From positions 1-64,000 of the forward strand of contig NZ_MBLO01000258.1 of NCBI RefSeq assembly GCF_001854805.1: a DNA stretch of 64,000 nucleotides, in the 5' to 3' direction. The DNA comes from Pseudofrankia coriaricola (GTDB lineage: Bacteria > Actinomycetota > Actinomycetes > Frankiales > Frankiaceae). This document shows positions 1-54,507 of this stretch, piece by piece (position 1 is the stretch's first letter; every line of letters begins with the position of its first letter). The notes under the pieces were generated by a model that was not told the DNA's origin, ran no database searches, and saw nothing but the letters and a program-made list of their open reading frames with translations. Position numbers and translations under genes: made by a program.

Positions 1-1
1 G

Positions 2-397
2 CGTGGTCGCGGCGGATTGCTGCTGGTCAATTCCGGCGCAGCCTACGGCGGCGGCAGCTTCATGGCGACCTACGCGGGAAGCAAAGCCTTCGAACTGTGC
101 TTCGGTGAGTCCCTGTGGGCCGAGCTGCGCCCCTACAACGTCGATGTGCTCAACCTGGTTCTCGGCAAGACCGAGACACCGTCTTTCCGGGCTCTGCTGG
201 CGGAAAAGGGATTGCCGGAGCCGACCGACTGGGCGACACCGCGGGATGTGGCTGACGCCGGAGTGACGCGCCTTCCGCACGGCCCCACCCATAATCAGGG
301 CCAGGCGGTTGACACGGCGGGCGATGAACGGCGCGCCAGGATTCTGATGATTGACGAGATGGCCAAGGACGTCTTTGGCGAGAGGGTCCCTGACTAG
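2..397 (+). CDS. SDR-family oxidoreductase, 3' part only
   Basis: The frame is open from base 2 to a TAG at 395-397, giving the last 131 residues of a short-chain dehydrogenase/reductase cut by the window edge. The visible part starts at the strand that carries the catalytic serine (LLLVNSGAAYGG) and contains the YxxxK catalytic pair as YAGSK. The tail (WAELRPYNVDVLNLVLGKTETP) fits the substrate-loop side of the fold. The NAD(P)-binding Rossmann half lies outside the window, so cofactor preference cannot be judged. The C-terminus ends in a charged tail without a lipid or membrane signal, so a cytoplasmic enzyme is expected. No substrate can be named. Confidence 0.8.
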   Translation, partial: RGRGGLLLVNSGAAYGGGSFMATYAGSKAFELCFGESLWAELRPYNVDVLNLVLGKTETPSFRALLAEKGLPEPTDWATPRDVADAGVTRLPHGPTHNQGQAVDTAGDERRARILMIDEMAKDVFGERVPD

Positions 398-560
398 CCC
401 AACCGCCACGTAAGCCGGAGTCGAATATTCCGGCCGATCACACAGCTACTTGTGTGGCCATAGATCGGCTACAATCGGAACTGCTATCCATGGCTTGCCG
501 CAGCACTCCGAGCTCCTCGCGCCGGCCGACCAGGTCGGCTGCCCTCCTCGCCGGTACACG

Positions 561-703
561 CTGGAACTCAAGGCGTTCGCGCTGCAGCCGCGCTTCGGGC
601 AGGAAGTCCGCGCCGAGGTCGACGACGTCCTGATCTGGGACAACTGGTCGGTCGTGCACAGCGCGACGCCCACCCACTACAGCGACCGCGACGGCGAACG
701 CCG
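561..703 (+). pseudogene. Relic of a TauD/TfdA-type dioxygenase (3' piece)
   Basis: This 143-base stretch translates to LELKAFALQPRF...VDDVLIWDNWSVVHSA...HYSDRDGERR. It matches residues near the C-terminus of the intact dioxygenase encoded further right, at bases 20571-20713. By hand I count 13 differences in 143 bases, about 91% identity. It keeps the distal metal-ligand histidine region (VVHSA), but the N-terminal two thirds and the very C-terminus are absent and the flanks are unrelated. The surrounding open frame (450-815) has no domain of its own. I read it as a dead fragment left by duplication or recombination. Confidence 0.8.
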
Positions 704-756
704 AGAGCCCGCGCCAGGCGGTCCTTCGCCAGGGAGGAGCCGCGGTGCGGGCGGTC

Positions 757-1641
757 TTAGCTCTGTGGGGAGCGGTCCTGGGTGGAATCGAGGAAGGCGA
801 GCAGTCGATTGTTGACGTCGCCGCCGTGCTGGAAGCCCGGTCCGTGGCCGACCCCGGGCAGGATCTCGGCGTGGCCGCCCGGCATGAGCGCCACCCGGGC
901 CTGGGCGCGGGCGGGATGGAGCAGGGGACTGCGTTCCCCGATCAGGACGAGGGCCGGAGTCTGGATGGCCCGGAGGTCCTCGTCGGAGAGCGGGAGGGGG
1001 GCGGGTCGGCGGGTGCGGAACGCCCACGCGCCGGTCAGCAGGACCTTCTTGAGTTCGGGGATGATCAGGACGGGGTTGTCCAGCCAGACCGCGAGCCGTC
1101 GGCGCAGGGGCGCCGGGGTGAGGCCGGCCATCCCATTCAGGTACATCAACCAGATGAACCGGGCGCTGACCTTCTCCAGCCCGCCGGGATCGAGCGCGGT
1201 CACGCTCACGAGCCGGTCCGGGGCGTGCAGGGCCTGGTTGAGGGCCAGCCATCCGCCGTAGGAGTGCCCGATCAGATGCGCCCGGTCAATATCGAGGCCA
1301 GCGAGGGTCTGATCGAGCCAGACGGCGCTGTCCGGCGGATCGTGGACGGGCCGGCGGGCGACGCTGCGGCCGGGATCACCGACGGTGTCCAGCGCGATGA
1401 TCGGGCGGCGCGCGCCGAGGGCGGCCAGGAACGGGTACCACTGGACCGCGTTGGAGTTGGCTCCGTGTAGCAGCACGACCGGCACGCCGGTGTCGGGTCC
1501 GTAGCGGTGCGCATGGGTGGTGCCGAAGTCGGTCTCCACATCGGTTTCCGTCCACGGCGTGGGCCACAGCGCGGCGAAGGCCGCGTCGTAGGCGGCGAGA
1601 AACCTGGCACGCTGCTTGTCACCGCGGAACCGGCCGACCAT
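757..1641 (-). CDS. Alpha/beta-hydrolase fold protein
   Basis: The 294-residue protein has the standard single-domain alpha/beta-hydrolase layout. An oxyanion-hole segment VVLLHGANSN is followed by the nucleophile elbow GHSYGG (Ser), an acid-side strand ending PALVLIGERSPLL, and a late histidine in LPGVGHGPG. These make it a probable serine esterase or C-C/epoxide-type hydrolase; the substrate is unknown. I place the start at the ATG at 1641 because GGAGG sits five bases before it; an ATG seven codons upstream lacks such a site. The gene is divergent from a TetR gene 48 bases away, the classic layout of a regulator controlling its neighbour. Confidence 0.85.
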   Translation of the reverse strand: MVGRFRGDKQRARFLAAYDAAFAALWPTPWTETDVETDFGTTHAHRYGPDTGVPVVLLHGANSNAVQWYPFLAALGARRPIIALDTVGDPGRSVARRPVHDPPDSAVWLDQTLAGLDIDRAHLIGHSYGGWLALNQALHAPDRLVSVTALDPGGLEKVSARFIWLMYLNGMAGLTPAPLRRRLAVWLDNPVLIIPELKKVLLTGAWAFRTRRPAPLPLSDEDLRAIQTPALVLIGERSPLLHPARAQARVALMPGGHAEILPGVGHGPGFQHGGDVNNRLLAFLDSTQDRSPQS

Positions 1642-1661
1642 GGGGTCCTCCGTAGCTTTCA

Positions 1662-1677
1662 TGGTACGTGTGTATCA
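1662..1677. promoter_or_regulatory. Candidate TetR operator between divergent genes
   Basis: The 48-base gap between the hydrolase and TetR starts contains TGGTACGTGTGTATCA. The outer six bases (TGGTAC/GTATCA) form an inverted repeat with one mismatch. Its position between two divergent starts is where a TetR dimer would repress both genes. The symmetry is modest, so this is a suggestion only. Confidence 0.35.
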
Positions 1678-1689
1678 CGAAAGGATGCG

Positions 1690-2298
1690 ATGCCGAAACG
1701 GGTTGACCACGAGCAGCGCCGCCGCCACATCGCCGACGCGCTGCTGCGCGTCGCGGCCACACGTGGGTTGCACACAGCTGGGTTCCGGGAGGTGGCAGCC
1801 GAAGCCGGGGTCTCGGTGCGGCTGGTCCAGTACTACTTCCAGACCAAGGAGCAGCTGCTGCTGTTCGGGCTGCGCCGGGTGGGTGAGCAGTTCGCCGAGC
1901 GGGTGCTGCCGCGCCTCGCCGCCGCCGGGCTGCCCGCCGCCGGCCGGGCACGGATCGAGTTCGTCCTGCTCGCGACGCTGCCCCTGGACGCCGAAAGCCG
2001 GTCGCTCCACGTCCTCTACAACCAGTACTTCGCGCTCGCGCTGACCGACCCCACGCTGGCGGCCCAGCCCTACGGCAGCGACCCCGACGCTCTCGAGGCG
2101 TGGCTGATCGAGCAGCTGCGCGCCTGCCAGGCCGATGGGCGACTCGACCCTGGACAGGACCTCGCCGACGAGGCGCTTGCCATCCTCGCCTTGGGTGTCG
2201 GGCTCGGCAACGCCATCCTCAGCGGCCGACGATCAGCAGACGACGCCCGACGCGTCCTCGCGCGCCACCTCGACCACCGACTTGGCCCACAAAGTTGA
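1690..2298 (+). CDS. TetR-family transcriptional regulator
   Basis: A 202-residue TetR-type repressor. The N-terminal helix-turn-helix spans roughly residues 10-55 (HIADALLRVAATRG, then FREVAAEAGVSVRLVQYYF, then TKEQLL), with the usual recognition helix ending in YYF. The C-terminal ligand domain is alanine/leucine-rich. The ATG at 1690 is chosen because AAAGGA lies six bases upstream and the protein then begins just before the first helix; the open frame extends further 5' but only as antisense to the hydrolase gene. It most likely represses itself and the divergent hydrolase. The effector is unknown. Confidence 0.85.
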   Translation: MPKRVDHEQRRRHIADALLRVAATRGLHTAGFREVAAEAGVSVRLVQYYFQTKEQLLLFGLRRVGEQFAERVLPRLAAAGLPAAGRARIEFVLLATLPLDAESRSLHVLYNQYFALALTDPTLAAQPYGSDPDALEAWLIEQLRACQADGRLDPGQDLADEALAILALGVGLGNAILSGRRSADDARRVLARHLDHRLGPQS

Positions 2299-2370
2299 AC
2301 CGAATGCGCCGAGCGAGCGCGAGCAGCCCAGGCCGGCAAACGGCACTCCGAACTCCCACCGTCCGACGCC

Positions 2371-2446
2371 GCTACTGAACTGATCGATCCCGGACTGAAG
2401 CGTCGACTGAAATGTTGGGCACGCTACTGAACTGTTCGGGTTCAGT
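2371..2446. repeat. Direct repeat plus small hairpin in intergenic DNA
   Basis: GCTACTGAACTG occurs twice, at 2371-2382 and 2423-2434. The second copy is part of an inverted repeat, ACTGAAC (2426-2432) with GTTCAGT (2440-2446). It lies between the TetR stop and the phosphotransferase relic. It could be a scar of a lost mobile element or a weak terminator; no transposase remnant is visible. Confidence 0.4.
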
Positions 2447-2488
2447 TGAGAGCTCGTGCCAGCCGCCGCGCTGGCGTGACCGCGAGGC

Positions 2489-2762
2489 CTACGGCGTCCG
2501 TTCCCCGCGCGCGATCGCGAGCGCGTCGGCGAAGATCGCCGGCGCCATCGGGGCGAACCGGGCACCCGAAGGGTCCCCGGTCCGGGCGGCCTGGGCGTGG
2601 TGGCCCTCCATGATGCAGCCGAGCTTGAACAGCGCCAGCACCTCATAGAACCGCAGGTCAGCGAGCGAGTGGCCGGTGCGCTCCGCGTAGCACGCGGCCA
2701 GCTCGGCGCGGCCGGCCAGCCCCGTCCGGTCGGCGACGTCGCTGGAGCCGAGGAAGGTCGCC
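2489..2762 (-). pseudogene. Relic of an APH-like phosphotransferase (last ~90 codons)
   Basis: On the minus strand this encodes ATFLGSSDVADRTGLAG...FYEVLALFKLGCIMEG...ALAIARGERTP and then a stop. This is the C-terminal end of the phosphotransferase-family protein whose complete gene lies at 50415-51482. The DNA match runs from about 2475-2762 (here) to 50402-50688 with about seven differences in some 280 bases, so it is a recent duplicate. The kinase motifs (HGDxxxxN, DxD) lie upstream of the break and are missing. The frame upstream of 2762 is unrelated, so no functional product is expected. Confidence 0.85.
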
Positions 2763-2823
2763 ACGGCTCCCCTGGATGCTGATCGCATCGACGGGGTCTA
2801 GCCTCGCGGGCGATGGGAGGTGG

Positions 2824-2970
2824 ATGCCTGCGATGAATCGTCTTCGGGTGGTCCCGGTGACGCGGACGGCGCAAGCCGGGACCGTGCTGCGAGTTGTCGA
2901 CGGCCACTCCGGCCGCGTGGCCGAGGTCGAAGAGGTCGGCCGCCCGCACCCGCCCAGGCCCGCACCATGA
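2824..2970 (+). CDS. Possible small protein translationally coupled to SixA
   Basis: A 48-codon frame begins at an ATG preceded closely by GGGAGG and ends at TGA 2968-2970, overlapping the ATG of the next gene in an ATGA arrangement. The predicted peptide (MPAMNRLRVVPVTRTAQAG..., then an acidic VEEVGR stretch and a proline-rich tail) matches nothing I recognise. The ribosome-binding site and the four-base overlap are what support it; it may equally be a leader that only sets translation of the phosphatase gene. Confidence 0.35.
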   Translation: MPAMNRLRVVPVTRTAQAGTVLRVVDGHSGRVAEVEEVGRPHPPRPAP

Positions 2971-3491
2971 CCGCGCCGTTCTCGCGGCGGTTGGTCGTCC
3001 TGCGGCACGCCAAATCCGCCTGGCCCGATGTGGCCGACCACGACCGGCCCCTAGCTCCGCGGGGACGCCGCGACGCCCCGGCCGCGGGTCGGTGGCTGCG
3101 CGACGCCGACTACCTGCCGGACCTGGTCGTCTGCTCCACCGCCAGGCGCACCCGCGAGACCTGGGAGCTGGCAGCCCGGGAACTCGCCGACACAGCGCCG
3201 GTCGTCTACGAACCCCGCCTCTACGACGCCACCGTCCCCGTCCTGCTCGACGTCGTCCGCGAAACCCCCGCGGCCTGTGGCACCCTGCTGCTGATCGGCC
3301 ACAACCCCGGCGTGCAGCAGCTCACCCTCCACCTCGCCGCCACCGCGGACGGCAACCTCCTGGAACGGGCGGCGACGAAATTCCCCACCAGCGCGGTCGC
3401 GGTGGTCACCTGGGCAGGTCCCTGGGCGGCGCTCGCTCCCGGCACCGCCCGGCTGACCGCGTTCACCGTCCCGCGCGGTGCGAAGCCCTGA
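2967..3491 (+). CDS. sixA: SixA-type histidine phosphatase
   Basis: A 174-residue member of the histidine phosphatase (phosphoglycerate-mutase-like) superfamily, close in size to SixA proteins, which dephosphorylate phosphohistidine. The catalytic motif is VLRHAKSAW near residue 12, where SixA-type enzymes carry RHA/RHG. A second conserved block is CSTARRTRETWE (about residue 58). The second catalytic histidine is in LLLIGHNPGVQQL (about residue 113). No signal peptide is seen, so it is probably cytoplasmic. Its target here is unknown; no phosphotransfer protein lies beside it. The start is the ATG that overlaps the preceding small frame; an upstream in-frame start at 2820 would add a low-complexity, arginine-rich leader. 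Confidence 0.8.
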   Translation: MTAPFSRRLVVLRHAKSAWPDVADHDRPLAPRGRRDAPAAGRWLRDADYLPDLVVCSTARRTRETWELAARELADTAPVVYEPRLYDATVPVLLDVVRETPAACGTLLLIGHNPGVQQLTLHLAATADGNLLERAATKFPTSAVAVVTWAGPWAALAPGTARLTAFTVPRGAKP

Positions 3492-3640
3492 CCGCCACGA
3501 GCGCCCTGATCGGTGACCCGCTCACGGTGATCTGGTGCCGCAGGGTGAGGATCTCGACGCCGTTGTCGCGATCAGTGCGGGGCGGCAGGCGTAGCAGCGC
3601 GACCGCGTTGTGGCATTTCCGGCAGGCACAGGGCCGGCGG

Positions 3641-4699
3641 CTAGGCCGGTCGTGTGTACGCGGGGCGCGTCCGTGCCGCGTGCCGGTATGCCGCGCCTAC
3701 GAGCGTGAGCGTGATCACGCTGACGGCGACGTCGCTGATCAACGCCGCCGGCGCGGACGTCGGCTCGTAGTTTGGCACGAGGTAGGCGCCGACCGCCGCG
3801 AGAATCATCGGAGCCGCCCACGCGGCCAGCACGTGCCGCTGCCCCCAGTCGGCGCGCCGGGACCAGGCCACGACGACGGCCGCGATCGCCGCGACGAGGG
3901 CGACCCGCACGCCCACGCCGGGCCAGCCGGAGACGAACCAGCTACCGAGGTTCGCGCCGATTACGACCGCGCCCACCCAGACCGGGCGTGGGGCGGGCCG
4001 GGACGCGGGGCTGAGCCCGCGGCGCCGCCACCGTGGCAACAGTGCAATGCCGACGAGCGCGAGCACCACCGACGTCGCGAACGCCACCTGCGACGGGCTG
4101 GCCATGAAGTCCTTGCGTCCGGATTCGTCGGAGAAGATCAGTAGGCTGCCGAGCAGATACAGGACGCCGACCACCGCCAGACCGGGCCGGCCCAGCCAGG
4201 GCCGGTGGCGCCGGGGCGGGGCCACGAACGACTCGACGAGCGCAATCGGCGCGCACATGCTCAGCGTGACGTGGTTGCCGATGAAGTCGAACGCCTGTCC
4301 GGCGCTGAAGCCGAGCGCCGGCACCCACGTCGCCTTCGCGACCACCGCCTCCGCGGCGAACCCGGTGTCGTCCAGGTAGTCCGGATTGAACAGCGACTGG
4401 TCGACCAGGCCGGCCTGGAGCATCCCGAACGCGGCGGCGAGAAGGACGATCGCCGGCCACCCGCCTCCGGCTCGGCGGGCTGTCTCGCGGATTAGCACCG
4501 CGGCTCCGCCGTACATCGGGGCCAGGATGAGAACGACGGTCAGGAACTCGTCGGCCGGGAAGCCGCCCCAGGAGCATTCGGCGGCCCACGGCGCGATCAG
4601 CATCAGGGCGACGACCGGCGCGAGCCGGCGCGACCGCGATGGCGGGTCGGCGGCTTCCGGCGAGGCGACACTGTCGGCGCCTGGTCTGTCGACAGTCAC
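3641..4699 (-). CDS. Polytopic membrane protein of unknown function
   Basis: A 352-residue protein. After a polar, proline/serine-rich N-terminus of about 25 residues come many hydrophobic segments, for example LAPVVALMLIAPWAA, FLTVVLILAPMYGGAAVLI, AIVLLAAAFGMLQAG, VVGVLYLLGSLLIF, VALVAAIAAVVVAW and a C-terminal VITLTLVGAAY: eight to ten transmembrane helices. Charged residues cluster in the loops. I do not recognise a family. The start is the GTG at 4699, preceded by AGGAGG at good spacing; the frame continues upstream through relic DNA but without a better signal. It faces away from the ferredoxin/P450 genes and converges on sixA, so context does not suggest a role. Confidence 0.75.
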   Translation of the reverse strand: MTVDRPGADSVASPEAADPPSRSRRLAPVVALMLIAPWAAECSWGGFPADEFLTVVLILAPMYGGAAVLIRETARRAGGGWPAIVLLAAAFGMLQAGLVDQSLFNPDYLDDTGFAAEAVVAKATWVPALGFSAGQAFDFIGNHVTLSMCAPIALVESFVAPPRRHRPWLGRPGLAVVGVLYLLGSLLIFSDESGRKDFMASPSQVAFATSVVLALVGIALLPRWRRRGLSPASRPAPRPVWVGAVVIGANLGSWFVSGWPGVGVRVALVAAIAAVVVAWSRRADWGQRHVLAAWAAPMILAAVGAYLVPNYEPTSAPAALISDVAVSVITLTLVGAAYRHAARTRPAYTRPA

Positions 4700-4820
4700 C
4701 GGTCCTCCTGCTTGGTTCGGGTGGAGCACCACTCTCCCGGTTCGCCGCGGGGGTCGACCACGGCCATCGTGCGAATCCGTACCGACCAAAGTCGATGATC
4801 CGGGCGTCGGGGCCGCGCCC

Positions 4821-4893
4821 GTCGCGAACGCCACCTTCCCCGTCAGGTCTCCCATCCCCGACCAGACCGGCGGGCGGGCCATGCGGGCGGACG
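4821..4893. pseudogene. Mosaic relic: SDR gene start joined to an amidohydrolase piece
   Basis: Bases 4821-4855, read on the minus strand, give MGDLTGKVAFATGA, the start of a mycofactocin-type SDR. They match 62281-62315, the start of the SDR gene near the right end, with about five differences in 35 bases. Directly next to it, on the plus strand, 4853-4893 encodes IPDQTGGRAMRADV and matches 63133-63173 inside the amidohydrolase gene with two or three differences in about 40 bases. Both parents lie within about 900 bases of each other at the right end. The wider gap 4700-5341 holds no gene I can support. Confidence 0.65.
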
Positions 4894-5180
4894 TTCTGTC
4901 AGGCCGGGCGACGGTGCCATGCGGACCGACCTCGTGTCCGTCCGCACCGTCGCGCGGCATCGTCCGCGCCTGAGATCCGACGCCTGAGGTGAGATCACTG
5001 ACCGTCAGGAGGAGAGCGGTGGCTGCGAGGCGCCTCGACGCCAAGCCGCCGCGGTCCGCCAGCTCCGCCCCGAGGCGCCCCGTCCGCACGGGCCAGCGGC
5101 GCTCCCCCGTCGTGCGCCGAAAGGCCGCCGCGCGCGACTTGACGATGACTCAGTGCCGGGCCATTCTCGACCTTACGCCG

Positions 5181-5210
5181 ACTTATATAACTAATTAAGC
5201 GTTTAGCTTG
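5181..5210. promoter_or_regulatory. AT-rich promoter/operator island 1
   Basis: In otherwise GC-rich DNA, this 30-base stretch contains ACTTATATAACTAATTAAGC followed by GTTTAGCTT. It lies 130 bases upstream of the ferredoxin gene and is the obvious promoter candidate for ferredoxin and P450. The words TTTAGCTT and CTAATTA recur in similar islands at other promoters of this window (see findings). Confidence 0.5.
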
Positions 5211-5341
5211 GGCCGAGCCGGCCCCGTCAGCTGGTTGGCGGGCGCGCGTCCCATGGATCCGCCGCGCGACGAGATCGCTCTGGCAGGCCACCGAAGCCCA
5301 GCGACGGCTGCCAACGGCCGAGGAAGGAGGAGAAGCGAGTC

Positions 5342-5536
5342 GTGCGCGTCCGTGTCGAGGAGGATGTGTGCCAGGGGCACACGCTGTGCGCGATGAACGC
5401 GCCTGAGCTGTTCGACCTGCGGGAGGACGACGGCCACGCCGTGGTCCTGCTCGTCGACGTTCCCGCCGAGCTGGAGGCGAAGGCCCGGCTCGCCCATCGA
5501 GGCTGCCCGGAACACGCGGTCGTCCTCGAGGAATGA
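5342..5536 (+). CDS. Small 3Fe-4S ferredoxin, probable P450 redox partner
   Basis: A 64-residue ferredoxin of the short type that feeds electrons to actinobacterial cytochromes P450. Cluster ligands visible are Cys10 and Cys16 in CQGHTLC and Cys54 in CPEHAV. The usual middle cysteine of a 4Fe-4S cluster is replaced by His13 (CxxHxxC), the pattern of [3Fe-4S] P450 ferredoxins. It is acidic, as expected for docking to a reductase and a P450. The start is the GTG at 5342, with GGAGG about 14 bases upstream. The P450 gene follows after 244 bases on the same strand; no ferredoxin reductase gene is present, so one must be shared from elsewhere. Confidence 0.9.
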   Translation: MRVRVEEDVCQGHTLCAMNAPELFDLREDDGHAVVLLVDVPAELEAKARLAHRGCPEHAVVLEE

Positions 5537-5622
5537 CGACGATCGCCAGCTCGATGCGGCCCCGGCGACCCGACCGCGCGGTTGGCCGATGGCATACGCG
5601 CCCACGACCTCATCGGGCCTCT

Positions 5623-5655
5623 ACCTGACTTTTACCTGACTTTTATCTGACTTTC
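5623..5655 (+). promoter_or_regulatory. Three 11-bp direct repeats upstream of the P450 gene
   Basis: Three tandem units (ACCTGACTTTT, ACCTGACTTTT, ATCTGACTTTC) occupy 5623-5655, exactly one unit per helical turn. They lie between the ferredoxin stop and the P450 start. Helically phased short direct repeats are the kind of site bound by SARP-type and other activators, so this may be an activator site for the P450. No SARP gene is in the window. Confidence 0.5.
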
Positions 5656-5780
5656 GCCATCAGGCCGCCGCCGCTGACGCCGCTCCCGCCGCCTGCGGCA
5701 CCCTCACGCGCAGAGATCACTGGCCCCGCCCGGGCGTGACCACGCCGGGGCTCCGGCACCATCGAGAGCGGATCCCCGTC

Positions 5781-7031
5781 ATGACCACCCAGCAGGCCCA
5801 GACCGCCGAGTCGGTCGACTTCGACCATCATTCCCCCGCATACGCCGAACACTGGCGGGAGACCTACGCCGACCTGCGCGGCCGCTGCCCGGTAGCGCAC
5901 TCGACCGCCCACGGGGGCTTCACCGTGTTAACGCGCTACGCCGACGTCGAGGCCGTCGTGAAGGACGACGCTTCCTTCTCCTCCCGCCACGACCCTGACC
6001 CCGCGTCGCCCTTCAAGGGCATCACGCTGCCAGAGGCACCCGTCATCTCGACCCCGATCGAGATGGACCCACCGTTGCACACCGCCTACCGCAAGTACCT
6101 CAACCCGTGGTTCTCCCCCGGCAGGTCGAAGTCGTACGAACCGTTCGTCCGCTCGGTCACCACCGCGATGCTCGACGCCGTCATCGAGACCGGGACGATC
6201 GACCTGGTCCACGACCTGGCGAGCCCCGTGCCGGCGCTGCTGACCGCGCAGGTGCTGGGCGTGCCGCTCACCGACTGGCGGCTGTACTCCGACGCCGCGC
6301 ACAGTATCGTGTTCAATCCACCGGGGACGGCCGAGTTCGAGGCAGCGGTCGCCAAGAACCTGAAGGTGCTCGAGCACTGCTTCCAGACCGTCCTCGCCCG
6401 CCGCGCGGAGCCGAAGGACGACCTGATCAGCGTGTTCGTCGACATGGAGATCGACGGGGAGAAGCTGTCCGACCAGCGCATCGTCGAGATGTGCAACCTG
6501 GTGATCGCCGGCGGCAACGACACCACGACCAGTCTGCTGGCCAACGCGTTCGCCTGGCTGGTCGAGCACCCGGACCAGCGGGCCTGGCTCGCCGCGGACC
6601 CGGCGCGCATTCCGGCCGCCTGCGAGGAGTTCCTGCGCTACTTCACCCCGACCCAGGCGCTCGCGCGGACCGTGACCCGCGACGTCGAGATCGGGGGCTG
6701 CCCGCTTAGGGAGGGCGACCGGGTGCTGATCTCGTTCGCGGCCGCGAACCAGGACCCGGAGATGTTCGACCGGCCCGACGAGGTCGTGCTCGGCCGGTGG
6801 CCGAACCGGCACCAGGCCTTCGGCCTCGGCGCGCACCGTTGCCTCGGCTCCAACCTCACCCGGGTCGAGTTCCGCGTCGTGCTCGAGGAGGTCCTGCGCC
6901 GCATCCCGGACTTCCAGATCGACTTCACGGCCGCCCAGCGCTACCCGACCATCGGCATCGTCAACGGCTGGATCGACATGCCCGCGGTCTTCACGCCCGG
7001 CGGCAAGGTCGGCAGCGGCTTCGTCCTCTGA
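5781..7031 (+). CDS. Cytochrome P450
   Basis: A 416-residue soluble bacterial P450 monooxygenase. The I-helix oxygen-activation motif is AGGNDTTTS (about residue 243), the K-helix ExxR is EEFLR (about 282), and the heme-binding loop is FGLGAHRCLG with the thiolate cysteine at about residue 353. All key residues are present. Together with the ferredoxin just upstream it forms a class I electron chain and should hydroxylate a hydrophobic substrate, probably the compound whose degradation the cluster serves. I chose the ATG at 5781; an in-frame GTG at 5736 would add 15 residues. The gene is followed by a strong hairpin. Confidence 0.92.
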   Translation: MTTQQAQTAESVDFDHHSPAYAEHWRETYADLRGRCPVAHSTAHGGFTVLTRYADVEAVVKDDASFSSRHDPDPASPFKGITLPEAPVISTPIEMDPPLHTAYRKYLNPWFSPGRSKSYEPFVRSVTTAMLDAVIETGTIDLVHDLASPVPALLTAQVLGVPLTDWRLYSDAAHSIVFNPPGTAEFEAAVAKNLKVLEHCFQTVLARRAEPKDDLISVFVDMEIDGEKLSDQRIVEMCNLVIAGGNDTTTSLLANAFAWLVEHPDQRAWLAADPARIPAACEEFLRYFTPTQALARTVTRDVEIGGCPLREGDRVLISFAAANQDPEMFDRPDEVVLGRWPNRHQAFGLGAHRCLGSNLTRVEFRVVLEEVLRRIPDFQIDFTAAQRYPTIGIVNGWIDMPAVFTPGGKVGSGFVL

Positions 7032-7038
7032 TTCCCGG

Positions 7039-7068
7039 CCCGGTGCCGGTCGCGCGACCGGCACCGGG
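7039..7068. terminator. Perfect 30-base palindrome, bidirectional terminator
   Basis: Bases 7039-7068 are a perfect inverted repeat beginning CCCGGTGCCGGT and ending in its complement. It sits eight bases after the P450 stop and between two convergent genes, so it probably terminates transcription from both sides. There is no U-tract, as is common in GC-rich actinobacteria. Confidence 0.7.
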
Positions 7069-7111: not shown

Positions 7112-7545
7112 TCAGCCAGTGAGCAGCTCCGCGCAGGACATGAGCACCATGCTGGAGGCGACGAACCCCGCGGTCGCCGCCCGGTCGATGGCGATCGTCG
7201 AACCGTTGATGAGGGCCGCATCGTCGTCGCACAGCAACGCCAGCGCCTTCCCGACGTCCGTCGGGGACTGCCGCAGCGCCCGCGCCAACTCGTCACCCGC
7301 CCCGGTCCGTTCGTAGCCCGGGTGCGGACCAGGCGGTCGCAGTCGTCCGTGCGGCGCACGTCGCCCGCGACGAACGTCAGCTCGCCGCCCGCGTCGCGTA
7401 CCTCGCGCTCCAACGCCTTGCCCAGCTCCTCCCGGCGGGCCATCCCGACGACGAGCGCGCCCTGCCGGGCGAACTCCGCGGCGACCCCCCGCCCCACCCC
7501 GGACGAGATCCCGGTCAGGACCGCGACCTTCCCCGCCATCGACAT
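7112..7545 (-). pseudogene. Internally deleted, frameshifted SDR gene
   Basis: On the minus strand the gene begins as a good SDR: MSMAGKVAVLTGISSGVGRG (TGxxxGxG cofactor motif), continuing to DVRRTDDCDRLVR. At about 7320 the frame changes. In another frame the C-terminal part follows, GDELARALRQSPTDVGKALALLCDDDAALINGSTIAID and a stop at 7112. Roughly 100 residues, including the NNAG, Ser and YxxxK catalytic parts, are missing between the two pieces. The product cannot be an active SDR. The neighbouring aldehyde dehydrogenase is divergent and intact. Confidence 0.85.
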
Positions 7546-10421: not shown

Positions 10422-10457
10422 CGGGACGCGGCCGCCCGGGCCAGGCGCGCTCGCGGG

Positions 10458-10502
10458 ACCGCCGTGCCACGGCCCGCCGGGAACGGGCCGTGGCACGGCG
10501 GT
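10458..10502. terminator. Strong hairpin, 19-bp perfect stem
   Basis: ACCGCCGTGCCACGGCCCG at 10458-10476 pairs perfectly with 10484-10502 around a seven-base loop. It lies between the amidohydrolase stop and the CoA-transferase start on the same strand, so it probably ends one transcription unit. Read-through regulation cannot be excluded. Confidence 0.7.
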
Positions 10503-10548
10503 CGTCCGACCAGCCATACAGCCGGAACGACGGAACAGAAAGAGACTG

Positions 10549-11827: not shown

Positions 11828-14254
11828 GTGATGTCCGCGCCATTGGAGGGCGTCCGGGTCGTCGACCTGACCGAGGGCATCGCCGGGGCCTACGCCACCA
11901 AGCTGCTCGCGGACGGCGGCGCCGAGGTGGTGAAGGTCGAGCGGCCCGGCGGCGACTGGCTACGGGGCTGGAGCGCGAGCGGCGCCACGATCGCCGCCGG
12001 CGACGACGGCGCGCTGTTCCAGTTCCTCGCATCGTCGAAGACCAGCGTGGTGGTCAGCCTTCCAGGCGACGCCGACCTGCTGGACAGCCTGCTGTCCAGC
12101 GCGGACATCGTCGTGGTCGGGCCGGGCGGCGCCCACGACCCGCACGCGCTGCGCCGCGACCACCCCCACGCGGTCGTCGTCAGCATCACCCCGTGGGGTC
12201 TGGACTCCCCGTGGGCCGACCGGCCGGCGACCGACGCGGTGCTGCAGGCCCTGGCCGGCGCGCCGATGACCCGCGGCAGCCGGGCCCGGCCGCCCGTGGC
12301 GCAGGGCGGCCAGCTGGTCGAGTGGACGTCGGGGATGATCGCCGCGATCGGCGCGCTGACGGCCAGGTGGCGGGCGCTGTCCACCGGGGACGGCGACCTG
12401 GTCGACGTCTCGCAGCTGGAAGCCGCCATCCTGACCACGACGATGTACTCGGTCACGTGGGCGTCGATCGCGGGTACCCCGATGCGACCGAACAGGAGCC
12501 GCAACCTGCCGGCGATCCACCGCACCAAGGACGGCTACGTCGGCTTCATGGTCGTCACCGGCCAGCAGTGGCTCGACTTCTGCGCGCTCGCCGAACAGCC
12601 GGACTGGATGGACGACGAGTCGCTGATCCGGTTCCATGTCCGCGCCAGCCGGTCGGCCGAGCTCACGGCCGCGATCGACGCCTGGGCGGCGCGGCACACG
12701 ACGGAGGAGATCCTCGACCTCGCGGACGCCTTACGGGTTCCCGCCTCGCCGGTCGGCCGGGGCGACACCGTGGTCGGCTTCGACCACTTCGTCGAACGCC
12801 ACGGCTTCCTGGCAAACCCACGCCGAGGCTTCACCCAGCCGGACGTGTCCTACACCCTGTCGGCCGGCGCCGCCCGCAGGCCGTTCACCCAGGCCCCGCG
12901 GCTGGGCGAGCACAACGATCGCTACCGGTCGGCGAAGCCCCGCCTACCCGAGGTGTCGGCGGTGCCGCGCGGCCAGGCGGCCGGGCGGCTGCCGTTCGAG
13001 GGGCTGCGGGTCCTGGACTTCACCATGAACTGGGCCGGCCCGATCGTCGGGAACGTGCTGGCGATGTTCGGCGCCGACGTCATCCACGTCGAGTCCATCC
13101 AGCGCCCCGACGCCCTCCGGTTCAACACCCTCAGGCAGATCGGCGAGCCGGGCTGGTGGGAATGGGCTCCGCAGTACATCGGCCCCAACGCCGGCAAGCG
13201 CGACCTCACCGTGAACATGGGCTCGGAGCGCGGCCGGGAGCTGGCTCTGCGGCTGGTCGCGCACGCCGACGTCGTCATCGAGAACTACAGCCCGCGGGTC
13301 ATGGACGGCTGGGGCATGACCTACGACAAGCTCCGCGGCGTCAAGGACGACATCATCTACGTTCGCGCGCCCGCCTACGGCCTCACCGGACCCTGGCGCG
13401 ACCGCGGCGGCTACGCGCAGACGATGGAGATGGCCTCCGGCCTGGCGTGGATGACCGGCTGGCCGGACGAGCCCCCGGAGATCCCGAACGGCCCGATGGA
13501 CCCGACCGCCGGCGGCCACACCCTGCTGGCCTTGCTGCTCGCTCTCGAACACCGCCGCCGCACCGGCCTTGGCATGCACCTCGAAAGCTCCATGATCTTC
13601 AGTGCACTCAACATCGCCGCCGAACAGGTCATCGAATACTCCGCCTACGGCGCCCTGCTGTCCCGCGAGGGCAACAGAAGCCCGTACGCGGCCCCGCAGG
13701 GGGCGTACCGCACCTCTGATCGGCCGCCGACCGGCGACCTCGACCGCTGGATGATGATCTCAGTCGCGACCGACGGGCAGTGGGAGGCACTCAAGGGCGC
13801 CCTCGGCTGTCCGACCTGGGCGGATGACCCGGCGCTCGACACCAGGGAAGGCCGCCGCGCCGCCCACGACCTCCTCGACAACCATCTGGCGACCTGGGCC
13901 GCGGCCCGTACCTCCGACGAAGCGGTCGCGACGCTCGCCGTGGCCGGTGTGCCGGCCGCGCCGGTGCTGCTCCAGCACGAGCCGGCGAGGCTCGAACCGC
14001 TGCTGGCCCGCAAGTTCTACGAAAGCGTGGAGCGCCCCATCACCGGCGGCCATCTGCTGCAGGCCTACCCCGCCCGCCTGGCCAGCGGTCCCGCTATGTA
14101 CAACCGCACCTCCGCGCCCCTGCTCGGCCAGCACAACACCGAGATCCTGCGTGACCTGCTCGGTCTCACCGACGAACAGATCAAAACCCTCGAAGCCGAC
14201 GGCGTCATCGGCACCGAACCAGACGCTGGCGGCCGCAACCGCGGCATGCAATAG
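11828..14254 (+). CDS. Tandem CaiB/BaiF CoA-transferase fusion, two domains
   Basis: An 808-residue protein with two complete class III CoA-transferase domains. Domain 1 spans roughly residues 4-365 (PLEGVRVVDLTEGIAGAYA, LLADGGAEVVKVERPGGDW). Domain 2 spans roughly 385-790 (LPFEGLRVLDFTMNWAGP, MFGADVIHVESIQRPD, NAGKRDLTVNMGS). The family normally forms an interlocked dimer of about 400-residue subunits; here both halves are on one chain, so one domain may have lost catalysis. The start is the GTG at 11828 or the ATG three bases later, after GGAGGGGG. It is in an operon with the single-domain transferase upstream and SDR genes downstream. Confidence 0.9.
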   Translation: MMSAPLEGVRVVDLTEGIAGAYATKLLADGGAEVVKVERPGGDWLRGWSASGATIAAGDDGALFQFLASSKTSVVVSLPGDADLLDSLLSSADIVVVGPGGAHDPHALRRDHPHAVVVSITPWGLDSPWADRPATDAVLQALAGAPMTRGSRARPPVAQGGQLVEWTSGMIAAIGALTARWRALSTGDGDLVDVSQLEAAILTTTMYSVTWASIAGTPMRPNRSRNLPAIHRTKDGYVGFMVVTGQQWLDFCALAEQPDWMDDESLIRFHVRASRSAELTAAIDAWAARHTTEEILDLADALRVPASPVGRGDTVVGFDHFVERHGFLANPRRGFTQPDVSYTLSAGAARRPFTQAPRLGEHNDRYRSAKPRLPEVSAVPRGQAAGRLPFEGLRVLDFTMNWAGPIVGNVLAMFGADVIHVESIQRPDALRFNTLRQIGEPGWWEWAPQYIGPNAGKRDLTVNMGSERGRELALRLVAHADVVIENYSPRVMDGWGMTYDKLRGVKDDIIYVRAPAYGLTGPWRDRGGYAQTMEMASGLAWMTGWPDEPPEIPNGPMDPTAGGHTLLALLLALEHRRRTGLGMHLESSMIFSALNIAAEQVIEYSAYGALLSREGNRSPYAAPQGAYRTSDRPPTGDLDRWMMISVATDGQWEALKGALGCPTWADDPALDTREGRRAAHDLLDNHLATWAAARTSDEAVATLAVAGVPAAPVLLQHEPARLEPLLARKFYESVERPITGGHLLQAYPARLASGPAMYNRTSAPLLGQHNTEILRDLLGLTDEQIKTLEADGVIGTEPDAGGRNRGMQ

Positions 14255-15143: not shown

Positions 15144-15205
15144 TCAGCCGGACGGCGGTTCATCCAACCGCGGCACAGCAGCCGGAAGGCAGGCAGGGAA
15201 CAGAC

Positions 15206-16048
15206 ATGGGTCGTGTCGAGGGCAAGGTCGCCTTCATCACCGGGGCGGCGCGAGGCCAGGGCAGGTCGCACGCGGTGCGGCTGGCGCAGGAGGGCGCGGA
15301 CATCATCGCGGTCGACGTCGTCGCGCCGGACGCCTATCCCTGGATGACGTACCGGCAGGCCGAGCCGGGCCAGCTGGACGAGACCGTCGCGCTCGTCGAG
15401 AAGACCGGCCGCCGGATCGTGGCCCGCCAGGGCGACGTCCGCGACCGCGGCAGCTTGCGGGCCGCGCTGGACGCCGGTCTCGCCGAGTTCGGCCACGTCG
15501 ACATCGTCAGCGCCAACGCCGGCATCAGCCCGTTCGGCCCGGAGAGCTGGAAGATCTCCGAGCAGCAGTGGGCCGACGTGCTCAGCACCAACCTCACCGG
15601 AGTTTGGAACACGACATCGGTGTGCGTGCCGCCGATGATCGAGGCCGGACGTGGCGGCTCGATCATCCTCACCAGCTCGGGCGCCGGCACCAAGGGCGTG
15701 CCGAACCTCGCCGACTACTGCGCGTCCAAGTTCGGCGTCATCGGTCTGATGAAGAGCCTCGCGGGCGAGGTGGCCCCGCACAACATCCGAGTCAACGCGC
15801 TGACCCCGGGCACCGTGGCCACCGACATGGTCCTCAACGAAGGGCTGTACCGGCTGTTCCGCCCCGATCTGGAGAACCCCACGAAGGAGGATGCGGCGGC
15901 CATCTTCGCGACCATGGTCAACCTGATGCCGACACCGTGGGTGGAGACCGTCGACATTTCCAACGCGCTGCTGTTCCTCGCCTCCGACGAGGCCCGCTAC
16001 GTGACGGGCCAGGTCTTCGGCGTCGACCTCGGCTCCTCCATCAAGTAG
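15206..16048 (+). CDS. Mycofactocin-type SDR oxidoreductase
   Basis: A 280-residue SDR with TGAARGQGRSHAVRLA at the nucleotide site and YCASK as the catalytic pair. Between the second strand (IIAVDVVAPDAY) and DVRD there is an insert of about 30 residues (YRQAEPGQLDETVALVEKTG). This insert, with the GQGRSHA signature, is characteristic of the mycofactocin-coupled SDR subfamily, whose NAD(H) stays bound and is recycled by the cofactor mycofactocin. No mycofactocin biosynthesis gene is in the window. The ATG at 15206 gives the standard N-terminus; the next gene starts directly after its stop. A close relative is at 61467-62315. Confidence 0.88.
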   Translation: MGRVEGKVAFITGAARGQGRSHAVRLAQEGADIIAVDVVAPDAYPWMTYRQAEPGQLDETVALVEKTGRRIVARQGDVRDRGSLRAALDAGLAEFGHVDIVSANAGISPFGPESWKISEQQWADVLSTNLTGVWNTTSVCVPPMIEAGRGGSIILTSSGAGTKGVPNLADYCASKFGVIGLMKSLAGEVAPHNIRVNALTPGTVATDMVLNEGLYRLFRPDLENPTKEDAAAIFATMVNLMPTPWVETVDISNALLFLASDEARYVTGQVFGVDLGSSIK

Positions 16049-19919: not shown

Positions 19920-20897
19920 TTGATCGAGACAAGGCTGCCAGGGGCGTTCGGCGCGACCCTGACGGACATCGACCTCGCGGCTCCACGGTCGGACCAGCAG
20001 ATACGCGCGATCGTCGACGCGCTGTTCCGCCACCGGGTGCTCCTCATCCCTGGTCAGCGGCTGAGCCGCGCCCAGTACGTGCGCTTCGGGGCCGAGTGGG
20101 GCACGCCGATCTCCTTCTTCGTGCCCGGCGCCCGGGATCACGAGTTCCCCGAGATCATCCGGATCACGAATTCGCCGGCGACCCCTGAGGTGTCGCGGGA
20201 CGGCGCGATGCACTGGCACTCGGACAGCTCCTACGAGGCGGAGCCCGCCGCGGTGACCATGCTCTACCCCCGTGAGATGCCCGCGGCCGGAAACGCCACC
20301 CGCTTCGCCGACAGCGCCGCCGCCTACGCCGCTCTGCCCGACCGGCTACGCGCCCACGTCGACCGGCTGGCCGTCATCCACGACCCCCGGGGCGGCAAGG
20401 TCACGACCGACGGCGAGGTCCGCGGCCGGGGCGCGACTCGGGAGCTGCCGCGCGTCACGCACCCGCTCGTGGCGACCCACCCGGTCACCGGCCGGCGCTC
20501 CCTGTTCGGCTTCTCCGGCACCGCTGCCGGGATCGTCGACATGGCCGAGGACGCGGCGATCGAGCTGCTGCTGGAGCTCAAGGAGTTCGCGTTGCAGCCA
20601 CGCTTCCGGCAGGAGGCACGCGCCGGCGTCGACGACGTCCTGATCTGGGACAACTGGTCGGTCGTCCACAGCGCGACGCGCACCCACTACAGCGACCGCG
20701 ACGGCGAGCGCCGGCTGGTCCACCGCATCAGCACCCGCGGAATCCCCCAGGTCTACGCGGACCGCGCGCCGCGACCCGGGCACAGGAACCCGGCGCCGGC
20801 TGACCGGCCCGGACCCCAGACGCCCGGGTCCCCACAACCGATGCCACCGACCCCGAACGATCCGGCCAGCGCATCTCCGGCCGTCCGCCCGCATTAA
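19920..20897 (+). CDS. TauD/TfdA-type Fe(II)/2-oxoglutarate dioxygenase
   Basis: A 325-residue member of the taurine/2,4-D dioxygenase family, which oxidises its substrate while decarboxylating 2-oxoglutarate. The facial-triad HxD is in MHWHSDSSYE, the distal histidine in WSVVHSATRTHY, and the 2-oxoglutarate-binding arginine in RRLVHRIS. The TTG at 19920 gives the usual MIETRLPGAFG-like start; a weak GGGAG lies ten bases upstream, and an ATG at 19824 is an alternative that adds a disordered leader. The C-terminal 50 residues are proline-rich and beyond the catalytic fold. A 143-base copy of its 3' region survives at 561-703. Confidence 0.85.
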   Translation: MIETRLPGAFGATLTDIDLAAPRSDQQIRAIVDALFRHRVLLIPGQRLSRAQYVRFGAEWGTPISFFVPGARDHEFPEIIRITNSPATPEVSRDGAMHWHSDSSYEAEPAAVTMLYPREMPAAGNATRFADSAAAYAALPDRLRAHVDRLAVIHDPRGGKVTTDGEVRGRGATRELPRVTHPLVATHPVTGRRSLFGFSGTAAGIVDMAEDAAIELLLELKEFALQPRFRQEARAGVDDVLIWDNWSVVHSATRTHYSDRDGERRLVHRISTRGIPQVYADRAPRPGHRNPAPADRPGPQTPGSPQPMPPTPNDPASASPAVRPH

Positions 20898-20970: not shown

Positions 20971-21405
20971 ATGAGCCTTGACGAGTCACCGAGCACACCG
21001 GATGGCCGATCCGAGAGCGTCCGCGAGGAAGTCCCGCTGGCGGGCATCCGGGTCGTGGAGCTGGCGGGGATCGGGCCAATCCAGTTGGGCCTCACCCGCA
21101 CCCGCGACGAGTGGGCACATGCCTTCGCCGCCGTGGACGGCTGCGTCACGCCGGTGCTGAACCTCGACGAGGCCCCCCACGACCCCCATCTGGCCGCCCG
21201 GGGCACCTTCACCGACGCCTTCGGCGTCATCCAGCCCCAGCCCGCCCCACGCTTCTCCCGCACTCCCGGCGGGATCCGCTCCGCGCTGCCGGCGCCCGGC
21301 GCCGACAGCCACGCGGCCCTGTCGGCCTGGGGCTTCTCCGCCGCTGAAATCGACGACCTGGTCGCCGCCAGCGCCGTCCATGAGCCGGATTCCGCCCCGG
21401 CCTGA
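20971..21405 (+). pseudogene. Alpha-methylacyl-CoA racemase-like gene with internal in-frame deletion
   Basis: The 144-codon frame starts with VPLAGIRVVELAGIGP, the conserved N-terminus of alpha-methylacyl-CoA racemases (CaiB/BaiF superfamily). It then jumps directly to TRTRDEWAHAF, CVTPVLNLDEAPHDPHLAARGTF and PRFSRTPG, the C-terminal third of the same family. Intact members are about 360 residues, so roughly 200 residues, including the catalytic aspartate/histidine region, are lost while the frame is kept. The start and stop are intact, so a short peptide might be made, but it cannot be a racemase. Confidence 0.85.
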
Positions 21406-22523: not shown

Positions 22524-22739
22524 CCGGCGACTTGTTGAAAAACGGCTACGGTCGACGCGAGCGCTCGTCCCTCCCATAAGGTCTCCCCTTCGCCTGCCCG
22601 TACACAAGCTGTAGCGGTCTGGTCATGCTTGAGGCTCCGCCGTCGCTACCCCCCGCGGCCGGGTCCGGGCCCGGCACGGACCTAGGGCTGGCGGCCCGCG
22701 CACTCGGCCGCGGGGAGGACGACCGTCGCGCGGGAGGCT

Positions 22740-22868
22740 CACTGGACCTCGCGACCACCACCGAGCGGCCCAAGGCCCTGTGGCTCCAGCACGACGCGGA
22801 CGGCCCGGAAACGTACGACGCGTTCCTCGCCTGCGGCGCCGGCACCGACCCCCAGGTCGAGGTCCCCC
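22740..22868. pseudogene. Mosaic relic: SDR gene end joined to an acyl-CoA synthetase piece
   Basis: On the minus strand 22740-22766 reads LGGGREVQ-stop, identical at protein level to the last eight residues of the SDR encoded at 57174-57935. Immediately beside it, on the plus strand, 22770-22868 reads KALWLQHDADGPETYDAFLA, nearly identical to residues 129-148 of the synthetase encoded at 59839-61401 (one Asp-to-Glu and one Glu-to-Asp change in that run). Two gene ends that are about 3 kb apart elsewhere are thus fused here. The 520-base gap 22524-23042 otherwise holds no gene I can support. Confidence 0.75.
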
Positions 22869-23042
22869 GACACCGCACACCCGACAGCTGACGGGTAGAT
22901 CCGCCCGTACCACGCGGGACGTCCTTGCGCCGGCGTCAAAAGGTTGACAAGGTCGCAGAATCATATGAATTTGTTAGCCACATCACCTCGCGGGGCGCCG
23001 AGGCAGGCGACCAGCCTCCGGCGACCGGAAGGAGCATGATCC

Positions 23043-28894: not shown

Positions 28895-28932
28895 GTGGCG
28901 GGCCGGCCATCCGCGGACGGCCGGCCCGCCAC
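28895..28932. terminator. Hairpin after livK, 14-bp stem
   Basis: GTGGCGGGCCGGCC at 28895-28908 pairs with 28919-28932 around a ten-base loop, five bases after the livK stop. It probably ends or attenuates the uptake operon before the next synthetase gene. Confidence 0.65.
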
Positions 28933-38640: not shown

Positions 38641-38745
38641 AAACGGGGCAAGGCCCTCGCGCCCGAGTCAGTTCTCATGGAGCAGGTCAGCGTGTCGCGA
38701 CCGACGCTAGGTGAGGCGTTCTGGCTTCTCGAAGCCGTCGGCGGT
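38641..38745 (+). pseudogene. GntR-type regulator stub (HTH piece)
   Basis: The plus strand reads KALAPESVLMEQVSVSRPTL followed by GEAFWLLEAVGG. This is the core of a FadR/GntR winged helix (consensus ...LMEQxGVSRPTLREAxRLLEAEG). No start, no complete wing and no ligand domain follow; the sequence runs into the antisense of the next gene. I read it as a remnant of a regulator gene truncated at both ends. Confidence 0.65.
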
Positions 38746-39769
38746 CAGCGGGGCCTGCGTTCGCCGTTGGCGGGGACCGTCTCGCCCCAGGCCATCCACA
38801 CATCTGGGGCGCGCCGCTCCCCCACCCCCGCACAAGGCCTTCCTGCTGCGGGTTCGGGATGGGGCCCAGCCGCATCCGGCCCCGCGGGTCCGGGACGAGC
38901 TCCCAGGCCTCGCCGTCGAGGGTCAACTCGAGGCCGTCGTGCCAGTAGCCGTCCTCGGCGCGCCGGACGACGACATCCATCTCCCGCACCACGCGGACCG
39001 AGCCGTCACCATTCACGACGAGCCCGACGTGGAACCGGCCCTGGCCGAACAGGAAATGGCCGAACTCCACCTCGCCGTCCTCCCAGCGCGTCGCCCAGCT
39101 GTACCAGGTCAGATAGTCGACGTCGTGCAGTGGGTCCTTCGCGACGTAGAGCCGGGCGCCGGGGCTCATGTAGGCCTCCTCGACGAACAGGAAGCCACGC
39201 GCCTCCCAGCCCAGCGCCGTTCCCTCGACCAGCCAGGTCTGGGTCGGGTAATAGAGCGCCCCGGAGGTTCCCGGCAGGTACCACTGCAGGCCCGGGCCGA
39301 CCCGGGAGCCCGACAGCTCCAGCACACCCTCCTCCAGGTAGTCGATCGACACGCCGTCCGTCCGCAGGCACATCCGGCCGCGGCCCGCGCTCTCGCCCGC
39401 GAGCGTCGCGACGCCGTCCGCCATCGAACGGGTCACCTGGTCACTGGACACCGCGTTACGCGGCTCCCGGCGGGTCACCAGCATGTCCGCGTCGGCGCTC
39501 GACAGCACGACCAGGCGGTCACCGAGGGAGTTGGCGTCGACCGTTCCGGTGACGGCCCCGGTCGGCGGCACCCGCCGCATAAGGCTGAAGAGATCGCCGT
39601 TGCCATCACGCAGGGCTCCCCAGATGTAGGTGCCCTCACGGCGCAGCCCAAGGATCTCCCGGTCAACGACGAACTCGTCCGCCACGACTTGGCGGTGGCC
39701 GGCGAGCGCGGCCCCGCCGAAGTCCCCTCGCGACGGCACGGCCGCGACGGCCAGGTTTTCGGCGCGCAT
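38687..39769 (-). CDS. Unrecognised protein, C-terminus probably rearranged
   Basis: A 360-residue protein I cannot assign. Visible features are an N-terminal MRAENLAVAAVPSRGDFG, a stretch of alternating hydrophobic residues with many Gly and aromatic residues (TWLVEGTALGWEARGFLFVE, DYLTWYSWATRWEDG, FHVGLVVNGDGS) suggesting beta-sheet folds of the lipocalin/barrel kind, and no signal peptide or membrane span. The ATG at 39769 has AAAGGA nine bases before it; the frame is open 18 codons further. The last 40 or so residues are read across the antisense of the GntR stub and are Arg/Pro-rich, so the natural end was probably lost. It sits downstream of an alpha/beta-hydrolase relic. Confidence 0.6.
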   Translation of the reverse strand: MRAENLAVAAVPSRGDFGGAALAGHRQVVADEFVVDREILGLRREGTYIWGALRDGNGDLFSLMRRVPPTGAVTGTVDANSLGDRLVVLSSADADMLVTRREPRNAVSSDQVTRSMADGVATLAGESAGRGRMCLRTDGVSIDYLEEGVLELSGSRVGPGLQWYLPGTSGALYYPTQTWLVEGTALGWEARGFLFVEEAYMSPGARLYVAKDPLHDVDYLTWYSWATRWEDGEVEFGHFLFGQGRFHVGLVVNGDGSVRVVREMDVVVRRAEDGYWHDGLELTLDGEAWELVPDPRGRMRLGPIPNPQQEGLVRGWGSGAPQMCGWPGARRSPPTANAGPADRRRLREARTPHLASVATR

Positions 39770-39980: not shown

Positions 39981-40076
39981 GTCTGGTCACGTGGAAGGTC
40001 TGTGCGTGCGGCCGACGTGATCGTGAGTGGCCGCCATCGCCGCCCGGCTGGCCGCCCTGCCTCGTCAGACCTTCGG

Positions 40077-44966: not shown

Positions 44967-45047
44967 CTATCAGCCCCACACCACGCCACGCCGAGCTCGT
45001 CTCGCGTGCCCGCACTCTCCCGGGTTCTGCCCAGACCACGCCCCGGC

Positions 45048-50346: not shown

Positions 50347-50414
50347 CGCGGCGTCGCGGCGCGGCAGCTGCCACAAGGGCCCGTGACAGCCGCCGCGCCG
50401 ACGTGACCGGAGGC

Positions 50415-52720: not shown

Positions 52721-52770
52721 GGTCTGCTCTCCCTTCGCCGGCCCGGCCCGCGCCGGTCGCCGGCGGTGCG

Positions 52771-52792: not shown

Positions 52793-52794
52793 GG

Positions 52795-54472: not shown

Positions 54473-54507
54473 CGGCATACCGGGGCGCGGGCGACGGTAG
54501 TCCCGCT

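Follow-up and report, generated by a model that had tools for sequence, protein, structure and literature searches.

The window analysed here is a stretch of 64,000 bases at the start of contig C258 (140,252 bases), with a G+C content of 71.5%, in a genome of 11.2 Mb (G000, whose contigs also include C36, C69, C222 and C235); further genomes of the genus are labelled G001-G006. The first 95 bases of the window (1-95) are identical to C244:254-348 on the reverse strand, probably a contig-end overlap. The window holds six short relics of genes that are present in it as parents, together with the following adjoining features.

487-560: piece that recurs on a different contig (C222:26058-26131, 96% of 74 bases)
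560-703, forward strand: TauD dioxygenase relic, from the 3' part of the gene (parent 20570-20713, 91% of 144 bases)
702-2365: hydrolase and TetR genes between the TauD and APH relics (PF12697, PF00440)
2449-2775, reverse strand: APH-family relic, comprising the 3' end of the gene and flanking sequence (parent 50376-50699, 95% of 327 columns, 508 bits)
4810-4856, reverse strand: SDR relic, covering the 5' end of the gene, approximately its first 15 codons (parent 62270-62316, 85%, 40/47, 54.5 bits, E 3e-7)
4853-4894, forward strand: relic of an amidohydrolase interior (parent 63133-63174, 95%, 40/42, 68 bits, E 1e-11)
4892-5245: block A, intergenic backbone common to the window and G006 (74%)
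22736-22766, reverse strand: SDR relic, covering the 3' end of the gene with its stop codon (parent 57171-57201, 90% of 31 bases, 43.7 bits)
22762-22874, forward strand: AMP-binding synthetase relic, from the interior of the gene (parent 60216-60330, 83% of 115 columns, 120 bits, E 2e-27)
19920-20897, forward strand: TauD gene, parent of the 560 piece (PF02668)
50415-51482, reverse strand: APH-family gene, parent of the 2449 piece (PF01636)
57174-57935, reverse strand: SDR gene, parent of the 22736 piece (PF13561)
59797-61401, forward strand: AMP-binding synthetase gene, parent of the 22762 piece (PF00501)
61467-62315, reverse strand: SDR gene, parent of the 4810 piece (PF13561, PF00106)
62432-64000, forward strand: amidohydrolase gene, parent of the 4853 piece, continuing past the end of the window (PF07969)

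Relics and parents in the window

The 4.8-kb mosaic, placed at 4821-4893 in a preliminary description of this DNA, is real and spans 4810-4894, where an SDR start and an amidohydrolase interior abut and have bases 4853-4856 in common; Pfam agrees with the families named there (SDR, amidohydrolase and synthetase). Mismatches between the SDR-start relic and its parent number 0/2/5 at codon positions 1/2/3, and both mismatches of the amidohydrolase relic, which includes 27 consecutive bases identical to its parent, fall at third positions. The amidohydrolase relic is 93% identical to the G006 orthologue versus 95% to its own parent, and the parent gene itself (62432-64000) has 87% DNA identity to that orthologue. 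With 4700-5360 as a query against the whole of its own genome, nothing matched apart from the stretch itself, the two parents and 28 bases on contig C223 (E 9.7e-4), and window 4400-5400 had no match in a plasmid collection. Block-A homology with G006 starts at 4892, right at the end of the mosaic, which places the mosaic on a breakpoint between the two genomes. To its left, the gene at 3641-4699 matched 42 loci, by their titles from Micromonospora and relatives, and a dispersed repeat of ~87 bases at 3523-3610 is numerous in G000 and G006, with some further copies in G003, G004 and G005 (74-89% alike).

The 22.7-kb mosaic (22736-22874) joins an SDR end to a synthetase interior, and here the two halves of the earlier claim fare differently. 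The synthetase part stands at 120 bits, with mismatches of 4/4/9 at codon positions 1/2/3 and identities of 83% to the window parent and 82% to G006. The SDR-end part scores at control level, so that it is upheld only by abutting the synthetase piece and by a match in G006 that is slightly longer (36 bases, 89%, 48.2 bits) than that to its own parent (31 bases, 43.7 bits). A separate stretch beside this piece, 22696-22731, has a match only in G005 (92% of 36 bases). The control was the window compared with its own reversed, non-complemented sequence, in which the best match reached 59.0 bits and the next 44.6 bits. The possibility, already raised in the preliminary description, that the matches are no stronger than chance ones is thus removed for the 68- and 120-bit pieces, which exceed all control matches; the SDR-start relic at 54.5 bits outscores all of them except one.

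Further relics, absent from the preliminary description, occur at the left end. The APH relic is 84% identical to G006 over 265 bases versus 95% to its own parent, and in a three-way comparison 38 sites differ in G006 only, 2 in the relic only and 2 in the parent only, with 2 all different; because relic and parent agree against G006 at those 38 sites, this duplication would postdate the split from G006. For the synthetase relic, the same comparison gave 13 relic-only, 3 parent-only and 5 G006-only sites and 1 all different, and this relic thus appears to be older, or faster-evolving, than the APH relic. The TauD relic matched at length only its own parent (91%) and is abutted by the piece at 487-560, which also occurs at 88% in G004 and 81% in G006. 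Where the TauD relic ends (703), homology of the hydrolase-TetR pair starts (699-702), and the pair lies elsewhere in relatives, at 5.43 Mb in G006 and at 1.38 Mb in G002 (90% over window 699-2365), so that genes sited elsewhere in relatives now stand among the stubs. Window 1-405 matches G006 at 7.21 Mb.

Cluster presence was judged by two probes (50300-54600 and 61400-64000) across eight genus genomes, only one of which, G006, has the cluster. G006 is therefore the sole comparison for the unrearranged order: six blocks (4892-5245, 20691-20759, 40074-45072, 50417-54499, 54589-61402 and 62334-63999) are collinear in the two genomes, while the left side is different. What the window has between one and the next of the first four blocks is missing from G006, where the last two blocks are set apart by 40 kb of other DNA; the window relics are absent from the G006 cluster locus. 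All that was found there of the TauD gene is a 69-base stub (equal to window 20691-20759) beside a kinase-GGDEF gene, and since this gene is whole in the window, a stub-leaving deletion also occurred in G006. A translated search of the intergenic gaps between 20 and 63 kb gave no reciprocal stubs of genes 757-4699 scoring at least 29 bits, and in the same search a weak 30% match was seen at 64353-64598 to 2967-3491. The outer left copy would fall beyond the contig end at position 1.

Other features of the window include gene fragments, namely a CoA-transferase III C-terminus at 20971-21405 (profile 291-365 of 366), an amidohydrolase C-terminus at 45006-45518 (profile 154-289 of 289) and an intergenic, broken SDR N-terminus on the reverse strand at 7249-7545 (36-39% to two window SDR proteins). 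P450-ferredoxin pairs lie at 5338-6998 and at C258:68271-69885 (P450 69% and direct, ferredoxin 77% and inverted), and C258:70855-70010 holds an inverted sequence 86% alike to the SDR gene at 15203-16048. Possible terminators are the inverted repeats at 7039-7068, 10457-10503, 28895-28932 and 61429-61462, which are 30-49 bases long and 90-100% self-complementary. One 808-residue gene (11828-14254) carries two CoA-transferase family III matches, a fused double protein, and 40077-44852 encodes a kinase-AAA-GAF-GGDEF protein of 1591 residues by Pfam. The C235 locus at ~74.8-79.7 kb (L204) has 71-77% relatives in four genus genomes, including the G006 orthologue of 40077-44852, and because such relatives are many, the two loci probably belong to a large paralogous family.

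Order, codon pattern and joints of the pieces

All six pieces with parents in the window are on the same strand as the parent and lie to its left. The left series, starting at 560, 2449, 4810 and 4853, corresponds to 20570, 50376, 62270 and 63133, and the second series, 22736 and 22762, to 57171 and 60216. The order is kept in both, which contradicts the earlier portrayal of the pieces as shuffled or scrambled. Also in keeping with the second series is 38651-38747, which matches 74027-74122 in direct orientation (83.5%) but overlaps a predicted gene. Collinear order is what a decayed same-direction duplicate would predict, and not what random insertion of small copies would predict.

The pieces also appear to have aged as genes. 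In the six window pieces, mismatches at codon positions 1/2/3 number 8/10/32, a third-position share of 0.64 (32/50), and when the SDR-end piece is pooled with the 20 local relics of the survey, of which three are inverted, and the APH relic is left out, the share is 0.55 (85/155), or 73/136 when the inverted cases are subtracted by hand. Ten orthologous genes of the window and G006 gave 375/294/1012 mismatches, a share of 0.60 (1012/1681). The share expected under neutral decay, which we estimate on the assumption that the mutation rate is uniform across a relic and equal to that at third positions, is 0.43; both values exceed it (window p 0.002, pooled p 0.0017) and neither differs from 0.60, suggesting that the pieces were formerly genes. 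Identities between relics and parents are uneven (83-95%). A single event would not account for all the relics, since the APH relic postdates the split from G006 and the synthetase relic is as far from its parent as from G006.

Six joints, chosen because the pieces abut, were scored for strictly shared bases, with a seventh, which has 51 unassigned bases, left out. The two window joints share 4 (4853-4856) and 3 bases (22762-22764), and the other joints share 4 (C258:124097-124100), 3 (C235:98282-98284), 0 (the inner joint on C235, 98223) and 0 (the joint at the y stub in G006, described below). The chance of at least 3 shared bases is 0.08 per joint, so four of six would arise with a probability of ~5e-4, a figure from hand arithmetic on joints selected for abutting. 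The genome encodes Ku, and end joining would therefore be possible.

Stubs elsewhere in the genus

A clearer case is found in G006, where the order is X, y stub, Z1-Z7, x stub, Y; X has beta-helix and AAA domains, Y is a sigma-70 factor and Z1-Z7 comprise histidine kinase, response regulator and ABC-transporter parts. The two stubs are as follows.

G006 3893657-3893770: y stub, 114 bases matching Y, after X
G006 3901555-3901633: x stub, 79 bases matching X, before Y

Pfam found mobile-element genes among none of the nine genes of this stretch. On contig C69 of the window's own genome, X, Y and Z1 to Z7 lie in a single run, with an additional 1.5 kb separating Z1 from Z2, that stops 319 bases short of the contig end; neither X nor Y is listed a second time on that contig. 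In G005 (C138), X, Y and Z1 are adjacent and the remaining Z genes follow after ~10 kb. Unrearranged relatives (G000 and G005) and complementary relics at the two predicted places, the two marks of tandem duplication-random loss (TDRL), are thus both present at this locus. Given the stubs at these places and the X-Y-Z order on C69 and in G005, Y most likely moved behind Z7 in G006 by tandem duplication and complementary loss.

Another case lies on contig C235 of the own genome, where 98103-98463 consists of 103819-103942, 104072-104109 and then 70792-70950, that is, a gene end in two pieces followed by a gene start. This junction of END and START reads as the joint of a direct duplication of 33 kb. 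In G005, the START gene (to 9.1 kb) is close to the END region (12.8-15.9 kb). The END relic is 90-92% identical over 100-121 bases to G002, G004, G001 and G005, and 89% over 121 to its own parent. The same type of scar thus appears to recur in the genus and, in G006, to accompany a change of gene order by tandem duplication and complementary loss.

Stubs were surveyed in 2.14 Mb of the genus (C258, 140 kb; C36, 300; C125, 200; C235, 180; G006, 920; G001, 400), with one 400-kb sample of G030, of the same class, as outgroup. A stub was required to lie less than 30%, and its parent at least 70%, in called genes, with an identity of at least 80%, a length of at least 25, at least 48 bits and at most 2 matches at the stub midpoint, a copy limit that was not applied to the reversed control. 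Within 100 kb of the parent, 17 stubs are direct and 3 inverted (p 0.003), a local density of ~1 per 100 kb (20 in 2.14 Mb). When local stubs were grouped by us into events, the counts were 11 direct versus 3 inverted (p 0.057), and without C258, the contig that prompted the idea, 12 stubs are direct versus 3 inverted. Far stubs (>100 kb) are evenly split, with 5 of each (local versus far, p 0.08), and the direct bias is no different from that of ordinary local coding repeats (44 versus 19, p 0.25). Across seven stretches and at any distance, 30 relic-like matches were found versus 1 in the reversed control, and the single 400-kb outgroup sample contained no stubs.

By these rules, the 17 direct local stubs do not include the SDR-end piece (43.7 bits), the APH relic (which overlaps a called small ORF), C258:124057-124100 (whose parent is outside a called gene) or 38651-38747. 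The survey took in neither the 40-kb stretch of C223 nor the 30-kb one of C222, and the copy limit excluded the dispersed repeats of C36. The latter are intergenic, ~50-70 bases long, on both strands and partly tandem with a 69-base period (for example, 101391-101595, 173159-173363, 158636-158715, 194883-194963 and 269303-269364).

Origin of the relics and comparison with known systems

We give a probability of roughly 0.6 to the reading that deletions within a second copy of the cluster sequence now at ~5-63 kb, in the same orientation, left the mosaics as scars. Its support in the window consists of collinearity, orientation and codon pattern; the duplication itself is inferred. A segment comprising the TauD, APH, SDR-synthetase and SDR-amidohydrolase genes would have come to be present twice, in direct orientation and through more than one event, and both copies would have been used as genes for some time, as is suggested by relic-parent differences mainly at third codon positions. 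The spare copies would then have been lost by large deletions that left stubs of 30-330 bases in their original order; at the 4.8-kb mosaic, for example, which adjoins block A, the deleted part would extend from the SDR start into the amidohydrolase interior. Finally, as the location of these genes in relatives suggests, the hydrolase-TetR pair and other genes may have been placed between the stubs. The relic pieces themselves presumably have no function of their own. Against this reading stand the negative result of the gap search for reciprocal stubs, the single relative available for comparing the order, the uneven identities, and the matches of 487-560 on another contig and of 22696-22731 in G005 only. 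Decay of a duplicate cluster was one of two explanations offered in the preliminary description, and it gains from the collinearity of six of six pieces, the codon pattern and the clearer cases elsewhere in the genus; the other, repeated copying of small pieces, is not favoured, as it predicts random orientation and order and neutral decay, neither of which is seen.

The second copy may instead have been imported, that is, a diverged homologous segment from a related strain may have been inserted beside the resident one, through a single crossover or through one-sided homology with a microhomology end, and the redundant genes then deleted. Relics are 5-17% diverged from their parents, and diverged copies would resist homologous collapse; the excess at third positions would be expected from the outset; the C235 END relic is as close to G002, G004, G001 and G005 as to its own parent; and the SDR-end match is slightly longer in G006. 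The amidohydrolase, synthetase and SDR-end relics are near ties between own parent and G006. However, the APH relic resembles its own parent much more than it does G006, the TauD relic has its parent as its one match at length, and the X-y-Z-x-Y order of G006 fits plain tandem duplication with complementary loss; import seems the less likely origin.

Template switching during break repair, in which short nearby pieces were copied and a full second copy never existed, seems quite improbable, although the pieces are short, come mostly from nearby and in many cases have bases in common at their joints, the 4.8-kb mosaic lies at a breakpoint relative to G006 and Ku is encoded in the genome. Such templated copying is at odds with the kept orientation and order of all six window pieces and with third-position shares (0.64 in the window, 0.55 pooled) above the neutral estimate of 0.43, and the reciprocal relics of G006 would be hard to account for without a real duplicate. 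Chance matching between high-GC coding sequences has a negligible probability: the SDR-end piece is at control level and one control match exceeds the SDR-start piece, but the four other local pieces score 68 to 508 bits and the survey gave 30 real matches against 1, and chance is rejected by the reversed control for every piece except the SDR-end piece taken alone.

A mobile element was also considered as the source of the relics and was rejected, as Pfam (E 0.001) shows no member of a transposase or integrase family among the 52 genes called in the window, a few of which were scanned with an alternative start codon. An assembly artefact is unlikely, because the relics have diverged from their parents and the clearest case sits in the two-contig assembly of G006.

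Transposon-free movement of genes in bacteria is usually inferred from gene order alone. Stubs at joints would be direct physical traces of it, carrying information on orientation, age and the sequence of the joint, and could be counted in complete genomes. Tandem duplication with complementary deletion might even be a main route in the genus, free of mobile elements, by which genes acquire new neighbours and become lodged in clusters; this is a tentative and rather doubtful extension, under which the history of gene order would be readable from intergenic DNA.

In homology-facilitated illegitimate recombination, foreign DNA enters beside a homologous anchor and is joined at its other end by microhomology, which resembles the import reading; a donor is not identified here. 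Bacterial tandem duplications, including the short-junction duplications of enteric bacteria, are often joined at a few shared bases. Those that arise spontaneously are young, whereas the window and its relatives would hold only fossils of old ones. That spontaneous tandem duplications occur in bacteria is documented (PMC11111574), and the shedding of redundant copies by deletion has been described for maize as fractionation after polyploidy (PMC2893956). The plant process, as outlined in that source, follows whole-genome duplication in a eukaryote, whereas the duplication proposed here is local. In a literature search at the level of titles, with subscription journals mostly outside its coverage, no title described such duplicate fossils in a bacterial chromosome. 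A close likeness is to TDRL, which, as described for animal mitochondrial genomes, involves direct duplication, loss of one copy per gene, predictable stubs and a new order, as at the X-Y-Z locus of G006. In the window mosaics, strand and order agree with TDRL in six of six pieces, and complementary relics inside the right copy were not found. Compared with the mitochondrial cases, the present ones differ in that they lie in bacterial chromosomes, leave stubs of 30-330 bases and, in the window, have genes from elsewhere among the stubs.
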